This document shows positions 14,243 to 35,172 of a DNA stretch of 36,782 nucleotides, in pieces; position 1 is the stretch's first letter; each line of letters opens with the position of its first letter. This DNA is from Aurantimonas coralicida (lineage in GTDB: Bacteria > Pseudomonadota > Alphaproteobacteria > Rhizobiales > Rhizobiaceae). The notes beneath the pieces are model-generated. The model saw only the letters and a list, made by a program, of their open reading frames with translations. It was not told the origin of the DNA and searched no databases. The stretch covers positions 1 to 36,782 of the forward strand of contig DRFF01000112.1 of assembly GCA_011050685.1 (NCBI GenBank), read 5' to 3'. A program made the translations under genes and the position numbers.

Positions 14243-15004
14243 TCAACTCTTCAATCGGTAACCGGTACGAAAGATCCAGCCGATGACCGCCAGGCTAACA
14301 ACGAGAAACGCCAGTGTCATGGTCAGGCTGACGCCGATCGAGACGTCCGACGTGCCGTAGAATGCCCAGCGAAAGCCGCTGATCAGATAGACGACCGGAT
14401 TGACGAGGCTGACGTCCTGCCAGAACTCCGGCAGCATCTTGATCGAATAAAAACTGCCGCCGAGAAAGGCCAGCGGCGTCACGATCAACAGCGGCACGAT
14501 CTGCAACTTCTCGAAACCGTCCGCCCAGATACCGATGATGAAGCCGAACAGCGAGAAGGTGATCGCCGTCAGAACCAGAAAGACGATCATCCAGACCGGG
14601 TGCTCGATCCTGAGATCGACGAACAGCGCGGCGGTCGCCAGGATGATCAACCCGAGAATCACCGATTTCGTCGCCGCGGCGCCGACATAGCCGAGCACGA
14701 TTTCGAAGGCGGAGATCGGCGCCGACAGGATTTCGTAGATCGTGCCGACGAATTTCGGAAAATAGATACCGAAGGCCGCGTTGGTCAGGCTCTGGGTCAA
14801 CAGCGACAGCATGATCAGACCGGGCACGATGAAGGCGCCGTAGGAGATGCCATCGATCTCGGTGATACGCGAGCCGATCGCCGCGCCGAACACGACGAAA
14901 TAGAGCGAGGTCGAGATGACCGGAGAGATCACGCTCTGCATGACGGTGCGCCAGGTGCGGGCCATCTCAAACACGTAGATCGCGCGCACGGCCTGAAAAT
15001 TCAT
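14243..15004 (-). CDS. ABC-2 type transporter permease
   Basis: Inner-membrane permease of an exporter, 253 residues with about six membrane helices and the ABC-2 pattern ([97 protein letters not shown]). It resembles the YadH/NodJ-like group, whose members export diverse lipids, polysaccharides or drugs; the substrate cannot be read here. Its ATG overlaps the ATPase stop as ATGA, with AAGGAG upstream inside the ATPase gene, so the two subunits are co-translated. Confidence 0.92.
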
Positions 15005-15927
15005 GCCCGCTCCTTCACCAGATTCACGAAAATCTCCTCCAGCGTGGACTGCTTGGTCGACAGATCCCGGAACCGGAGGCCCGCGTCGGACAGCTTGGCC
15101 ATCAACGTCGTGATCCCGGTCCGCCCGGCGTGGGTGTCGTAGGTGTAGGTGAGGCTTTCGCCGTCGGGCGCCAGGCTGAGATTATAGCCAGCCAGCGTCT
15201 CCGGCAGACGCTCCAGCGGCTCCTGCAATTGCAGCGTCAGCTCCTTGTGGCCGAGCTTGCGCATCAGTTCGGCTTTTCCCTCGACGAGGATCAGCTCGCC
15301 CTTGGAGATGACGCCGACGCGGTCGGCCATCTCCTCGGCTTCCTCGATGTAGTGGGTGGTGAGGATGATGGTGACGCCCGAATCGCGCAAGCGGCGGACG
15401 ACGTTCCACATGTCGCGCCGCAGTGACACGTCGACGCCGGCGGTCGGCTCGTCGAGGAACAGCAGCTCCGGCTCGTGCGACAGCGCCTTGGCGATCAGAA
15501 GGCGTCGCTTCATGCCGCCCGACAGCGTCATGACCTTGGCGTCCTTCTTGTCCCACAGGGACAGATCGCGCAGCACCGACTCGATATGCGCCGGATCGCG
15601 CCGTTTGCCGAATAGGCCACGTGAAAAGGACACCGTGTCCCAGACCGTCTCGAAGGCGTCGGTAGTGAGTTCCTGCGGCACCAGACCGATCATCGACCGC
15701 GCGGCGCGATAATCCTTGCCGATGTCGTGACCGGCGACGCTGATGACGCCTTCGGACAGGTTGGTGATGCCGCAGACGATCGATATGAGGGTGGTCTTGC
15801 CGGCCCCGTTCGGGCCGAGCAGCGCAAAGATTTCACCCTTGTCGATCGCCAGATCGATGTTCTTCAGCGCCTGGAATCCGCCCTCATAGGTCTTCGAGAC
15901 GTTCCGGACAGATAGGATCGGGGACAT
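15001..15927 (-). CDS. ABC transporter ATP-binding protein
   Basis: ATPase of the ABC-2 exporter; 308 residues from ATG 15927. Walker A is GPNGAGKTT, the signature is LSGGMKRR, Walker B is [10 protein letters not shown] and the switch histidine is in [15 protein letters not shown]. The C-terminal ~85 residues (from [11 protein letters not shown]) form the extra domain typical of CcmA-like exporters. The frame extends to 16038, and an ATG at 16008 (MSTHDVEPS) has an AAAGGG only two bases away; homologues usually begin at the [17 protein letters not shown] start, so I prefer 15927. A palindromic repeat lies directly upstream and could influence expression. Confidence 0.92.
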
Positions 15928-16050
15928 GGAAGGCCTTGGGAAACCGGGCTGGCAGGGCGCCTGCGCCGCAAGACGCGGCACCGACGGCTCGACATCATGT
16001 GTCGACATAGCCCTTTCGTCGAACTTGGCCAGAGGCATCTGGCCTCACTT

Positions 16051-16316
16051 ATACCAACCTGCGGCGATAGGGACCTATTCGATGGCGCTGAACGGGCTTG
16101 TCCGGCCAGGAGCGACGCGCAGTTCGATGCGGCGCATCGGGCAAGCGGTGCGACGCCGTCCGGCGAGCCCGTCCAGCCCACCTATGGCCGGGCGCTCGCC
16201 GCGCCTGGATTCGTCGCGGGCCTCGCCCGATGCGCCGCATCGCGCGTCGTCCCGCTCCTCGCCATGCATCGGCGATCGTCCCGGTCGAATAGGTCCCTAT
16301 CGCCGCAGCTTGGTAT
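16051..16316. repeat. Long palindromic intergenic repeat, copy 1
   Basis: A 266-bp element bounded by ATACCAA and TTGGTAT. Its outer ~32 bases form near-perfect terminal inverted repeats (ATACCAACCTGCGGCGATAG against CTATCGCCGCAGCTTGGTAT, continuing GGACC/GGTCC). An 18-bp perfect inner inverted repeat follows (16125-16142 and 16225-16242, CGATGCGGCGCATCGGGC type), flanked by AGGAGCG and CGCTCCT. The whole unit can thus fold as one long imperfect hairpin. A second copy lies at 32154-32431 in the same orientation. No transposase is present, so it is MITE-like. The rest of the 460-base gap between the ABC ATPase and the DUF3563-like gene shows nothing. Confidence 0.88.
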
Positions 16317-16387
16317 TAGGCCGATCGACGCTGCAGACGCAGGATTCGGCCAGTCGTTCCGGCCGCGCCCAAGATAGGAATATGGTT

Positions 16388-16546
16388 TTAGAATCCGTAG
16401 CCGCGCGGCTGGAAACGACCCTGGTCGACTTCGCGCATGCGACGCTCCAGATCGGCCATCGATATGGACTGGTCGAGATAGGCGCGAACGCGCTCCTGCT
16501 CGGGATTGCGGCGGAATGCGCTGCGGATCTTGTCGGTGATGTTCAT
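16388..16546 (-). CDS. DUF3563-like small protein
   Basis: A 52-residue protein below usual gene-finding length limits. It begins MNITDKIRSAFRRNPEQERV and continues with AYLDQSISMADLERRMREVD and GRFQPRGYGF. The YL-x-x-S-x-S-x-x-DLERRMRE-x-D pattern is that of DUF3563 proteins of alpha- and betaproteobacteria (from memory); their function is unknown. A well-placed GGAGAA lies upstream of the ATG at 16546. It appears monocistronic, with the palindromic repeat downstream. The strong ribosome site and the family pattern make it a convincing gene. Confidence 0.8.
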   Translation of the reverse strand: MNITDKIRSAFRRNPEQERVRAYLDQSISMADLERRMREVDQGRFQPRGYGF

Positions 16547-31740: not shown

Positions 31741-32010
31741 ATGGCCAATACCCCTTCGGCCAAGAAGGCCACGCGGAAGATCGCGCGGCGTACCGCCATC
31801 AACACCAACCGCCGCAGCCGCGTGCGCACCTTCCTGCGCAACGTCGAAGAGGCGATCACCGCCGGCGACAAGGACGCGGCTGTCTCGGCATTCCGGATTG
31901 CCGAACCGGAACTGATGAGTGCCGTGTCCCACGGTGTGTTTCACAAGAACACGGCGTCGCGGAAGGTCTCCCGCCTTGCCCATCGCGTGAAGACGATCGG
32001 CGCCGCCTGA
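31741..32010 (+). CDS. rpsT: 30S ribosomal protein S20
   Basis: Primary 16S rRNA-binding protein of the small subunit; 89 residues, helical, basic. [37 protein letters not shown] and [19 protein letters not shown] are family blocks. AGAGAGA upstream serves as the ribosome site. It has its own promoter and a strong terminator, so it is monocistronic. Its place upstream of dnaA is conserved in many Rhizobiales; the enoyl-CoA hydratase gene that often lies between mutM and rpsT is not here. Confidence 0.97.
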
Positions 32011-32061
32011 TCTGAACGGCGCGTCACACCCGAGTCGATGACCGGGTGACTGGATGATGAC

Positions 32062-32089: not shown

Positions 32090-32153
32090 GATTCCAAGGC
32101 CGAGACTGGCCATCCGATGACAATACGAACGGCCTCAGCGCGGACCACCGCTC

Positions 32154-32431
32154 ATACCAACCTGCGGTGATAGGGACCTGTTCGATGGAGCTGAACGGGC
32201 TTGTCCGGCCAGGAGCGACGCGCAGTTCGATGCGGCGCATCGGGCAAGCGGTGCGACGCCGTCCGGCAAGCCCGAGCAGCCCACCGAAGGCCGGGCACTC
32301 GCCGCGCCTGGATTCGTCACGGGCCTCGCCCGATGCGCCGCATCGCGCGTCGTCCCGCTCCTCGCCATGCATCGACGCCAAGGTGCGGGAAATGGCCGGT
32401 CTAATGGGTTCCTATCGCCGCAGGTTGGTAT
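32154..32431. repeat. Long palindromic intergenic repeat, copy 2
   Basis: A 278-bp element in the same orientation as copy 1 (16051-16316). The first ~217 bases are about 95% identical to copy 1 by eye (about ten differences). The last ~60 differ in the middle (copy 2 has about 12 extra bases) but return to TCGCCGCAG–TTGGTAT. The same 18-bp inner inverted repeat is at 32228-32245 and 32328-32345. It lies between the rpsT terminator and the putative origin region. Both copies are followed by AGGCCGA, so the true unit may extend a few bases to the right. Confidence 0.88.
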
Positions 32432-33169: not shown

Positions 33170-33604
33170 ATGTCTAAAGACTACAGAGGCGATGTTTCAC
33201 CTGGGGAGTGCTGGTCAGCGCTCGCAGAGAAACCGGACGCCCTGCTCGTCGACGTCCGCAGCACTGCCGAGTGGGCCTATGTCGGATTGCCGATGCTCTC
33301 TTCGCTCGGCAAGACGCCGCTGCTCGTCGAGTGGCAGAGCTTCCCTTCGATGGCGGTGGATCCAGCCTTCGCGGAGAAGCTCGCCGATCAGGTCAAAAAG
33401 GCGGGCGGCACCCCGGTCTCGCCGATCTTCTTCCTCTGCCGGTCGGGCGTGCGCTCGATCGCCGGCGCCGTGGCGCTAACCGCCCACGGCTTCGAGAATT
33501 GTTTCAACGTCCTCGGCGGCTTCGAAGGGCCGCCGGACGCGGAAGGACATCGCGGGCGGAAAGCCGGTTGGAAAGCGGAGGGTTTGCCTTGGGCACAGAA
33601 TTAG
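33170..33604 (+). CDS. Rhodanese-like domain protein
   Basis: A 144-residue single rhodanese domain: LLVDVRSTAEWAYVGLPML at the front, then PIFFLCRSGVRSIAGAVALT with the active-site cysteine C90 in the CRSGVRS loop, and FENCFNVLGGFEGPPD. Rhodaneses move sulfane sulfur to acceptors such as cyanide or thiols; the physiological acceptor is unknown. The loop length is that of sulfurtransferases rather than Cdc25-like phosphatases. GGGGGA precedes the ATG at 33170. It is 95 bases upstream of dnaA on the same strand, and the dnaA promoter may lie before or inside it. Confidence 0.92.
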   Translation: MSKDYRGDVSPGECWSALAEKPDALLVDVRSTAEWAYVGLPMLSSLGKTPLLVEWQSFPSMAVDPAFAEKLADQVKKAGGTPVSPIFFLCRSGVRSIAGAVALTAHGFENCFNVLGGFEGPPDAEGHRGRKAGWKAEGLPWAQN

Positions 33605-33699
33605 GTCTTCGCCGGCGCATTGCAGCTGTGAGTCCCAACGCGGACGGGACTCACGCGCTGCGCCAATCAACAACCAACAACAATGATTTCGGGGCAGGT

Positions 33700-35172
33700 A
33701 TGGACGGCGGCGCGAGGGGCACAGCAGAGATTATGGAGCGGGTGAACGCCCGGCTGAAAGCGCAACTTGGGCAGGACATCTTCTCCAGCTGGTTCCAACG
33801 GATGAAACTCGAGGCGACCGGCAAGGGGGTCTGCCGCATCTCGGTGCCGACTGCGTTTCTGCGCAGCTGGATTCAGTCACATTACCACGACCTTCTGACC
33901 GAAATCTTCAGCGCCGAAGTGCCAGGAACGCTGCGCGTCGACATCGCGATCCGCAGCGCCGTTCGCGGTGGCGGCGTCACGATTCGCCAGGCGCGCATCG
34001 CGGGCCAGAGCGAGCCGGAGGTGGCGCGGGTTGCGGAACCGGCGCGCAGGGCCGTCGCCGGCTCCCCGGCACCGGCAAAGGCGTTTCTTGGCGGCGACGC
34101 TCGAACCCCTGCTTTATCCCAGAGCGCCGAGTTCGGCTCGCCCCTCGACCCGCGCTACGTTTTCGACACCTTCGTGGAAGGCGCCTCCAACCGGGTCGCC
34201 CTCGCCGCCGCGCGAGCGATCGCGGAGAACGGGCCGCAGTCGGTCCGCTTCAATCCCCTGTTCATCCACGCTGCCGTCGGCCTCGGCAAGACCCACCTGC
34301 TCCAGGCGATCGCCAATGCGGCCTCGCGCCGCGAGGACCGGCCGCGCGTCGTCTATCTGACGGCGGAGTATTTCATGTGGCGTTTCGCGACCGCGATCCG
34401 CGACAACCGCGCCCTCGATCTCAAGGAGACGCTGCGCGGCATCGACATATTGATCATCGACGACACCCAGTTCCTGCAAGGCAAATCGATCCAGCAAGAG
34501 TTCTGTCATCTTCTGAACGCGCTGGTCGATTCGGCGAAACAGGTGATCTGCGCCGCCGACCGCCCGGCGATGGAGCTGGAATCGCTCGACCCGCGAGTCC
34601 GCTCGCGGCTGTCGAACGGCGTCACGCTTCAGATCGCCGTGCCGGACTACGAAATGCGCCGCTCGATCATCGGGAGCCGGGCCGCGGCGATGCGAGCCGA
34701 GGATCCGAGTTTCGATATGCCCGAACGGGTGATCGACACGATCGCCGAGCGCGTCGCCGGCTCCGGTCGCGATCTCGAAGGGGCGTTCAACCAGATCGCC
34801 TTCCGCCACTCCCTCGGCCAGCCGCTCTCGGCGGAACATCTGGACGATCTGCTCAACCAGCTGACCCGGGCCAATATCGAACGGCGGGTTCGCGTCGAGG
34901 ACATCCTGAAATTCGTCTCGCGCCACTACAATGTGACGCGCACCGACCTTTTGTCGGCGCGCCGCACCCGGACCATCGTGCGGCCACGTCAGATCGCCAT
35001 GTATCTCGCCAAGACCATGACGCCGCGCTCGCTCCCCGAGATCGGCCGGCGCTTCGGCGGCCGCGACCACACCACGGTGCTGCACGCGGTGCGCAAGATC
35101 GAGGGCGAACGCGCCAATGACGAGAAGCTGTCGGAGGAGCTCGATCTGATCCGCCGTATGATCGAGGAATAG
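33700..35172 (+). CDS. dnaA: Chromosomal replication initiator protein DnaA
   Basis: AAA+ initiator that binds DnaA boxes and opens oriC. The 490-residue product has domain I (IMERVNARLKAQLGQDIFSS, WFQRMKLEA), a variable linker, the ATPase domain (FIHAAVGLGKTHLLQAIANA; Walker B IDILIIDDTQFL; DPRVRSRLSNGVTLQI) and the C-terminal DNA-binding signature GRDHTTVLHAVRKI. The first Walker A position, usually glycine, is alanine (AAVGLGKT). The open frame extends upstream through the rhodanese gene; I chose the ATG at 33700, while a GTG at 33628 is an alternative. The start is followed immediately by domain I. Confidence 0.96.
   Translation: MDGGARGTAEIMERVNARLKAQLGQDIFSSWFQRMKLEATGKGVCRISVPTAFLRSWIQSHYHDLLTEIFSAEVPGTLRVDIAIRSAVRGGGVTIRQARIAGQSEPEVARVAEPARRAVAGSPAPAKAFLGGDARTPALSQSAEFGSPLDPRYVFDTFVEGASNRVALAAARAIAENGPQSVRFNPLFIHAAVGLGKTHLLQAIANAASRREDRPRVVYLTAEYFMWRFATAIRDNRALDLKETLRGIDILIIDDTQFLQGKSIQQEFCHLLNALVDSAKQVICAADRPAMELESLDPRVRSRLSNGVTLQIAVPDYEMRRSIIGSRAAAMRAEDPSFDMPERVIDTIAERVAGSGRDLEGAFNQIAFRHSLGQPLSAEHLDDLLNQLTRANIERRVRVEDILKFVSRHYNVTRTDLLSARRTRTIVRPRQIAMYLAKTMTPRSLPEIGRRFGGRDHTTVLHAVRKIEGERANDEKLSEELDLIRRMIEE

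Follow-up and report, generated by a model that had tools for sequence, protein, structure and literature searches.

The locus analysed here raises the question of whether a long gene-less palindrome, present in two similar intergenic copies, represents a mobile element or a dispersed structured RNA. The window, that is, the whole stretch of DNA under analysis (36,782 nucleotides of Aurantimonas coralicida), is the entire contig C112 of a genome of 4.86 Mb in 202 contigs. Our analysis indicates that the element is by kind a palindromic MITE-like repeat, and probably a copy of a non-autonomous MITE-like transposable element whose family is found in many Alphaproteobacteria. The observations that carry this reading are the dispersal of the element, its absence at several orthologous sites, a fold preserved through substitutions on both sides of its pairs, two hairpins that are inverted homologues of each other, and short ends that are conserved.

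A direct repeat of 227 nt at 95% identity joins positions 16048-16274 and 32151-32377 (start-to-start spacing of 16,103), as the original prediction had stated for a pair about 95% identical and some 16 kb apart. Aligned with each other, the two copies lose their similarity at the element ends, and therefore a larger duplicated block was ruled out as its source. Copy 1 is an imperfect palindrome of 264 bp (16052-16315, with the ends set at TACC...GGTA), which the family alignment described below reads on the minus strand; copy 2, also on the minus strand, measures 276 bp (32155-32430). Self-comparison of the window detected inverted arms of 108 nt (74%) in copy 1, and the terminal inverted repeats, predicted to span 32 bases, match at 31 of 32 positions in copy 1 and at 27 of 32 in copy 2. 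Direct reading of the sequence showed the inner 18-bp inverted repeat that had been noted, and the claimed folding over most of the length agrees with a predicted RNA fold of -176.1 kcal/mol for the repeat; 200 shuffles averaged -123.4 (z = -11.3), and none of them folded as well.

According to self-comparison and fold, the terminal repeats of copy 1 form an outer stem with its left arm at 16052-16083 and its right arm at 16285-16315. Inside this stem, on the minus strand, fold and family alignment place hairpin B at 16084-16181, with the core CTTGCCCGATGCGCCGCATCG at 16124-16144; sequence and family alignment place the centre linker at 16180-16192 (CCGGCCTTCGGTGG in the family, CCCGGCCATAGGT in copy 1) and hairpin A, the inverted homologue of hairpin B, at 16188-16284. 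TTA flanks the element on the left (16049-16051) and on the right (16316-16318), a proposed 3-bp target duplication read from the flanking 3-mers. Copy 1 has as neighbours a DUF3563 gene (16394-16546, minus strand) and an ABC ATPase ORF (15001-16038, minus strand) followed by an ABC-2 permease, and these positions agree with the predicted location in the leader of an ABC exporter operon beside a DUF3563-like gene. Copy 2 has on one side an ORF (31742-32011) recognised by eye as ribosomal protein S20 and on the other dnaA (33208-35172), and may be close to the replication origin.

The two copies are not the only ones, since further copies were detected in the same genome and in its relatives, and the condition under which the original prediction would have failed (two copies in all and none in relatives) does not hold. 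The search of the Aurantimonas genome returned 45 BLAST matches, some of which are the two strands of one place. They correspond to five intact long copies (two in C112, and those in C36, C155 and C143:196), four halves at contig ends (C157, C186, C57 and C86) and 11 shortened, degenerate or fragmentary copies, a copy number that is provisional because contigs end inside copies. For the same reason, these elements matter for genome finishing. The shorter forms include a copy of about 200 bp (C57:35091), shortened copies in C26 and C182 (173 bp each) and C100, a degenerate copy in C152, copies of 43-55 bp that are barely more than the outer stem (C104, C106 and C143:49756), and element fragments in C131, C1 and C74.

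Thalassospira mesophila contains 49 end matches, which form 21 pairs and seven single ends, and 18 of the 21 pairs measure 267 bp, which suggests a recent spread in this species. Full reading of nine copies showed them to be near-identical except for two hairpin inversions. In each of nine copies examined, TA flanks both ends, with Y before it in eight and R after it in nine. We also observed two complete elements about 2 kb apart in a composite-transposon-like arrangement (L152:5114-7666). With its signs of recent activity, T. mesophila offers a system for testing how transposase-less palindromic repeats such as ERIC and REP spread.

The distribution in other genomes is wide and patchy. Among 60 genomes searched, the own genome included, seven match at E up to 1e-4; within the genus, two of the seven other genomes match (G002 and G005) and five do not (G001, G003, G004, G006 and G007). 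The single match of G014 sits in sequence without a palindrome. Of 397 genomes sampled in the order, 25 contain the core pattern (up to two mismatches), and these belong to 17 families; the reversed control pattern was found in none. Single two-mismatch matches to the core may be remnants or chance. Scanning named genomes for the exact 22-base core gave 48 stretches, which we take to come all from Alphaproteobacteria, and the carriers include T. mesophila, Tistlia, Kiloniellaceae, Denitrobaculum, Pelagibius, Roseibium aggregatum and Rhizobiales bacterium IMCC20636. Aurantimonas marina and an uncultured Aurantimonas are also among the core matches, with TACCAACCTGCGG-type ends. Two elements gave no blastn match against 72,556 plasmids, S. 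meliloti pSymB included. A full element with TACCAACGGTC ends was observed on a viral-classed contig (IMGVR_UViG_3300033407_000880, L294:5535-5793), and in Denitrobaculum (L145:5639-5924) the core of hairpin B is expanded to tandem CGGATGCCGCCGCAT repeats, with a shorter expansion in L164. One mobile fold would tie together many alphaproteobacterial genera; its structure is retained as arms and ends diverge, and for this reason a search by sequence alone recovers only a part of the family.

To describe the element across the family, 96 candidates were reduced to 37 non-redundant elements, of which 26 were aligned. The other 11 (L001, L061, L065, L072, L092, L101, L103, L134, L143, L145 and L169) were left out by eye, because hairpin A was lost or altered, extra repeats were present or they were close relatives of kept rows. 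Common to the aligned elements are short ends and an outer stem (24 aligned pairs); they also share TTTGA and hairpin A, the centre CCGGCCTTCGGTGG, hairpin B, which contains GCTTGCCCGATGC.CCGCATCGCGC, and CATCAAA. Most of the ends read are TA followed by GAGC or CCAA, with GTACC in some copies of G058; G370 carries both end types. Hairpins A and B share, in inverted orientation, an internal loop in which GGCAAGGC stands opposite AACGnnG, as recognised by eye. The outer stem holds about 0.4 bits per column (1.3-1.5 in its last five bases) and the hairpin arms 0.76-0.87, against 1.2 for TTTGA, 1.4-1.5 for the loop motif of hairpin A, 1.6 for the centre and CATCAAA, and 1.7 for the core of hairpin B. 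On this evidence, conservation is higher in the interior motifs than in the outer stem and the terminal repeats, partly by the search itself: the hairpin B core and the centre linker served as search and filter patterns, which makes their conservation in part an artefact of how candidates were picked, whereas the A motif, TTTGA and CATCAAA did not.

Against a generally better conserved interior, comparison of G302, a genome of another family, with Aurantimonas revealed ends identical at 22 and 23 of 25 positions and an interior of 62% identity, and therefore ends and interiors have partly separate histories. In addition, alignments read by eye uncovered copies in which the content of a hairpin is inverted relative to near-identical copies. 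The apical part of hairpin A is inverted between the arms in two of nine full T. mesophila copies (L152:5114-5376 and L160:4136-4398), and hairpin B in one of eight Aurantimonas copies (C143:196, seen at L009:197-472). Template switching at short inverted repeats, or the processing of folded single strands, would explain these inversions.

The joined flanks of ten copies of the own genome were searched in four sister genomes of the same genus and two genomes of other families. For the C104 copy, G002 shows a precise empty site (CTTA[element]TTTGATT versus CCTAGATT), the length of which agrees with a duplication of 3 bp rather than with a 2-bp TA, although its flanking 3-mers, TTA and TTT, are not identical. 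The C26 copy is cleanly absent from a sister genome with 96% flank identity, where the length is also off by three bases and the junction reads differently. G003 lacks the C182 copy, at a site about four bases too long, and the C57 and C106 copies are absent from G002, with diverged spacers; for both window copies, divergence of the G002 flanks prevents a reading. For IMCC20636, five copies were compared within its genus, and in 12 alignments the position of the element is taken by 15-83 bases; some of these "empty" sites keep TAGAG at the junction and may thus be remnants of an older lost copy.

Equal flanking 3-mers were found in six of 11 own copies, where 3.6 are expected (3.4% of shuffles as high), and in seven of 17 after adding copies from other genomes, where 4.6 are expected (6.8% of shuffles as high). 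The 3-mers therefore support a target duplication only weakly, being little above chance, while the empty sites that the original prediction had proposed to look for do occur at several sister loci, and in C104 with a length that fits 3 bp. ORFs of at least 90 codons have their stop codon exactly at the junction at 10 of 65 ends in three sets, a count made without a control, which fits a T-rich target in GC-rich genomes. The copy at L012:1505-1677 lies at a stop codon, where the sister gene in G002 ends in TAA and the ORF of the own genome continues to a stop 13 bases inside the element. Dispersed copies in differing flanks, absence at sister sites and the 21 pairs of T. mesophila support the MITE reading put forward originally.

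A transposase with ATACCAA ends had also been expected. The own genome has 12 matches to PF01609 and seven to PF13340 (19 loci; two overlap and several lie near contig ends), and TACCAA...TTGGTA at IS distance is absent from all 19 loci, among which the expected enzyme was accordingly not found. In five carrier genomes, PF13358 matches in two and PF01609 in three; G431 has two matches to PF01609 and none to PF13358, and both G370 (8 contigs, 99% complete) and G058 (draft) contain the element and no match to PF01609 or PF13358. The 24 DDE loci of the carriers yielded three 6-mer pairs as candidate matching ends, which were rejected as the following bases mismatch. Y1_Tnp was matched in four of eight carriers, with no match in T. 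mesophila, IMCC20636, G370 and G002, and none of six Y1_Tnp loci has the core or the linker nearby. Overall, no mobiliser was found among the IS4/IS5, IS630 and RAYT-type matches examined.

Single ends at C131, C1, C74, C67, C181 and C100 were considered as parts of an autonomous copy and read by eye as halves, remnants or chance ends in ordinary sequence (ORFs listed for two). No protein family stands out beside the elements. The largest cluster of neighbouring ORFs covers six genome labels, its printed member being an ABC ATPase by eye, and was taken as chance.

These data bear on a narrower explanation, in which the repeat is an ordinary deletion derivative of an IS5-like IS with TNA or YTAR targets, and the intact copy has disappeared, is hidden in repeats that were not assembled, or has no more than its final few bases in common with the element. 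A 3-bp TNA duplication and YTAR or TA flanks, such as those proposed here, are of a kind known for groups of the IS5 family. An intact IS could have been missed, since the genome is in 202 contigs that end inside copies and its own search covered PF01609 and PF13340, and the shared ends and divergent interior of G302 are what a normal MITE would show. However, the nearly complete G370 has the element, both types of ends and neither PF01609 nor PF13358. The 27-base end pattern of T. mesophila gave no pair at the distance of a single IS, the only wider pairing being the two elements about 2 kb apart, and the alignment of 26 elements shows conservation of interior motifs, not of the outer stem. 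We consider an IS5-like origin possible, if somewhat unlikely.

The original prediction had offered a dispersed structured RNA as its alternative and suggested a check for compensatory changes. In the alignment of 26 elements, 92.8% of 2414 cells are paired, against 36-40% in slid controls; 522 cells changed on both sides (shuffle mean of 148), and a double change is seen in 76 of 93 pairs, against 50 on average in shuffles. The structure was derived from the same alignment, which favours pairing, but the controls fall far below these values. From family to family the sequence varies and the fold of an outer stem with two hairpins stays.

Such very strong paired substitutions would also be expected of a dispersed structured RNA or a cis-regulatory element that host selection retains wherever it lies, mobility being incidental. 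This explanation is further favoured by the position of copy 1 upstream of the ABC operon, by a consensus fold of the alignment that is better on the plus strand (-148.1 versus -135.6 kcal/mol), and by the variation within genomes, which is lower in paired than in unpaired columns in Aurantimonas (30/1386 versus 48/462) and IMCC20636 (56/1764 versus 47/493), with no clear difference in T. mesophila (12/1512 versus 6/329), a comparison biased by the choice of paired columns through the same folding. Since paired columns vary less, we dropped the idea that resident copies simply decay neutrally, and these copies may also be under selection. Single elements, however, show no strand preference: the plus strand folds lower in only 12 of 26, which gives no specific indication of a one-strand RNA. 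Folding of the plus strand is lower for hairpin A in 25 of 26 elements and for hairpin B in six of 26, as expected for an inverted dimer and not for one transcript. An excess of G-U over A-C, taken as a sign of a one-strand RNA, was rejected, since it is similar on the folded strand (181 to 61) and on the other strand when that is folded (143 to 50), and therefore reflects a folding bias.

Most differences within genomes, in addition, affect one side of a pair only: single and compensated changes number 29 and 0 in Aurantimonas, 13 and 1 in T. mesophila, and 38 and 9 in IMCC20636. Some sites are also empty in sister species. Rfam gave no match in the window at gathering scores and none inside the element at eight loci, where three matches fall outside the elements, and a known Rfam family was ruled out by this absence of covariance-model matches within elements. 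A match below the gathering score to the Brucella sRNA family BASRCI27 was seen outside the element in Roseibium (L146:713-794). We consider improbable an RNA or regulatory element maintained by host selection at each site with only incidental mobility. The structural part of the alternative is supported by the paired changes, and its extension to one RNA strand is not, as single elements fold equally well on both strands. From these predicted folds, we read the element as an inverted dimer of one polar hairpin, without a clear sign of a single functional RNA strand.

Membership in the REP/RAYT (REPIN) system, in which an inverted dimer of tagged hairpins is moved by a Y1 (HUH) transposase, would account for two polar inverted hairpins with a shared internal loop and TTTGA ahead of each on its own strand, and recalls the REP dimers of A. 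variabilis nested in long palindromes with TA ends, as described in PMC3733652, but is very improbable given Y1_Tnp in only half of the eight carriers, six Y1_Tnp loci without core or linker nearby, a conserved tag that is neither GTAG nor CGTC, and a clearest empty site that suggests target duplication.

Under the preferred reading of a non-autonomous MITE-like element, the DNA can fold into a T whose outer stem, formed by the terminal inverted repeats, bears the two polar hairpins, one inverted relative to the other. A trans-acting transposase may recognise the folded interior together with the short ends, and insertion would take place at T-rich TNA or YTAR sites, sometimes stop codons, presumably with a short target duplication made at that step. 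Shortened copies might arise later through deletion of hairpin tips. We advance only tentatively, as unlikely in this full form, the proposal of a class-wide "inside-out" mobile family, in which the mobilising enzyme, from a group so far not connected with repeats of this sort, would read the folded single-stranded T, with its two inverted polar hairpins and their common internal loop, and not the sequence of the terminal repeats, and the outer stem and hairpin arms would drift while remaining complementary.

No paper describing this double-hairpin family was found in the open-licence literature. In shape, the element recalls the T-shaped terminal hairpins of parvovirus type, a stem with two small hairpins whose parts are inverted between copies; the analogy is one of shape only, as the element has no gene and does not lie at a genome end. 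It shares with MITEs a short length (264 and 276 bp), terminal inverted repeats (31 and 27 of 32) and multiple dispersed copies. The ERIC, RUP, Nemis/Correia and YPAL repeats are described in PMC3733652 and PMC10969869 as gene-less elements of about 70-300 bp with terminal inverted repeats, a robust secondary structure and many copies. Our element resembles these ERIC-type palindromic MITEs in size, lack of a gene, terminal inverted repeats, structure and copy number, and differs from their description there in its two inverted polar hairpins on an outer stem that differs between lineages. REP and REPIN elements have a GTAG/CGTC tag, a hairpin of 20-40 bp and a RAYT in the genome; here the tag is TTTGA, the hairpins are about 90-100 nt long and four of eight carriers have no Y1_Tnp match. 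The nearest description found in the open-licence literature is that, in PMC3733652, of REP dimers in long palindromes (A. variabilis GTAG-15 and H. neapolitanus CGTC-1), which likewise have an inverted hairpin pair nested in a palindrome, and from which the element differs in its tags, its longer hairpins with variable arms and those carriers without Y1_Tnp. By description only, it can also be likened to the RIME, Sm, AB and C palindromes of rhizobia, intergenic Hyphomicrobiales repeats that PMC2573895 presents as of unknown function and, like the element studied here, of conserved secondary structure.
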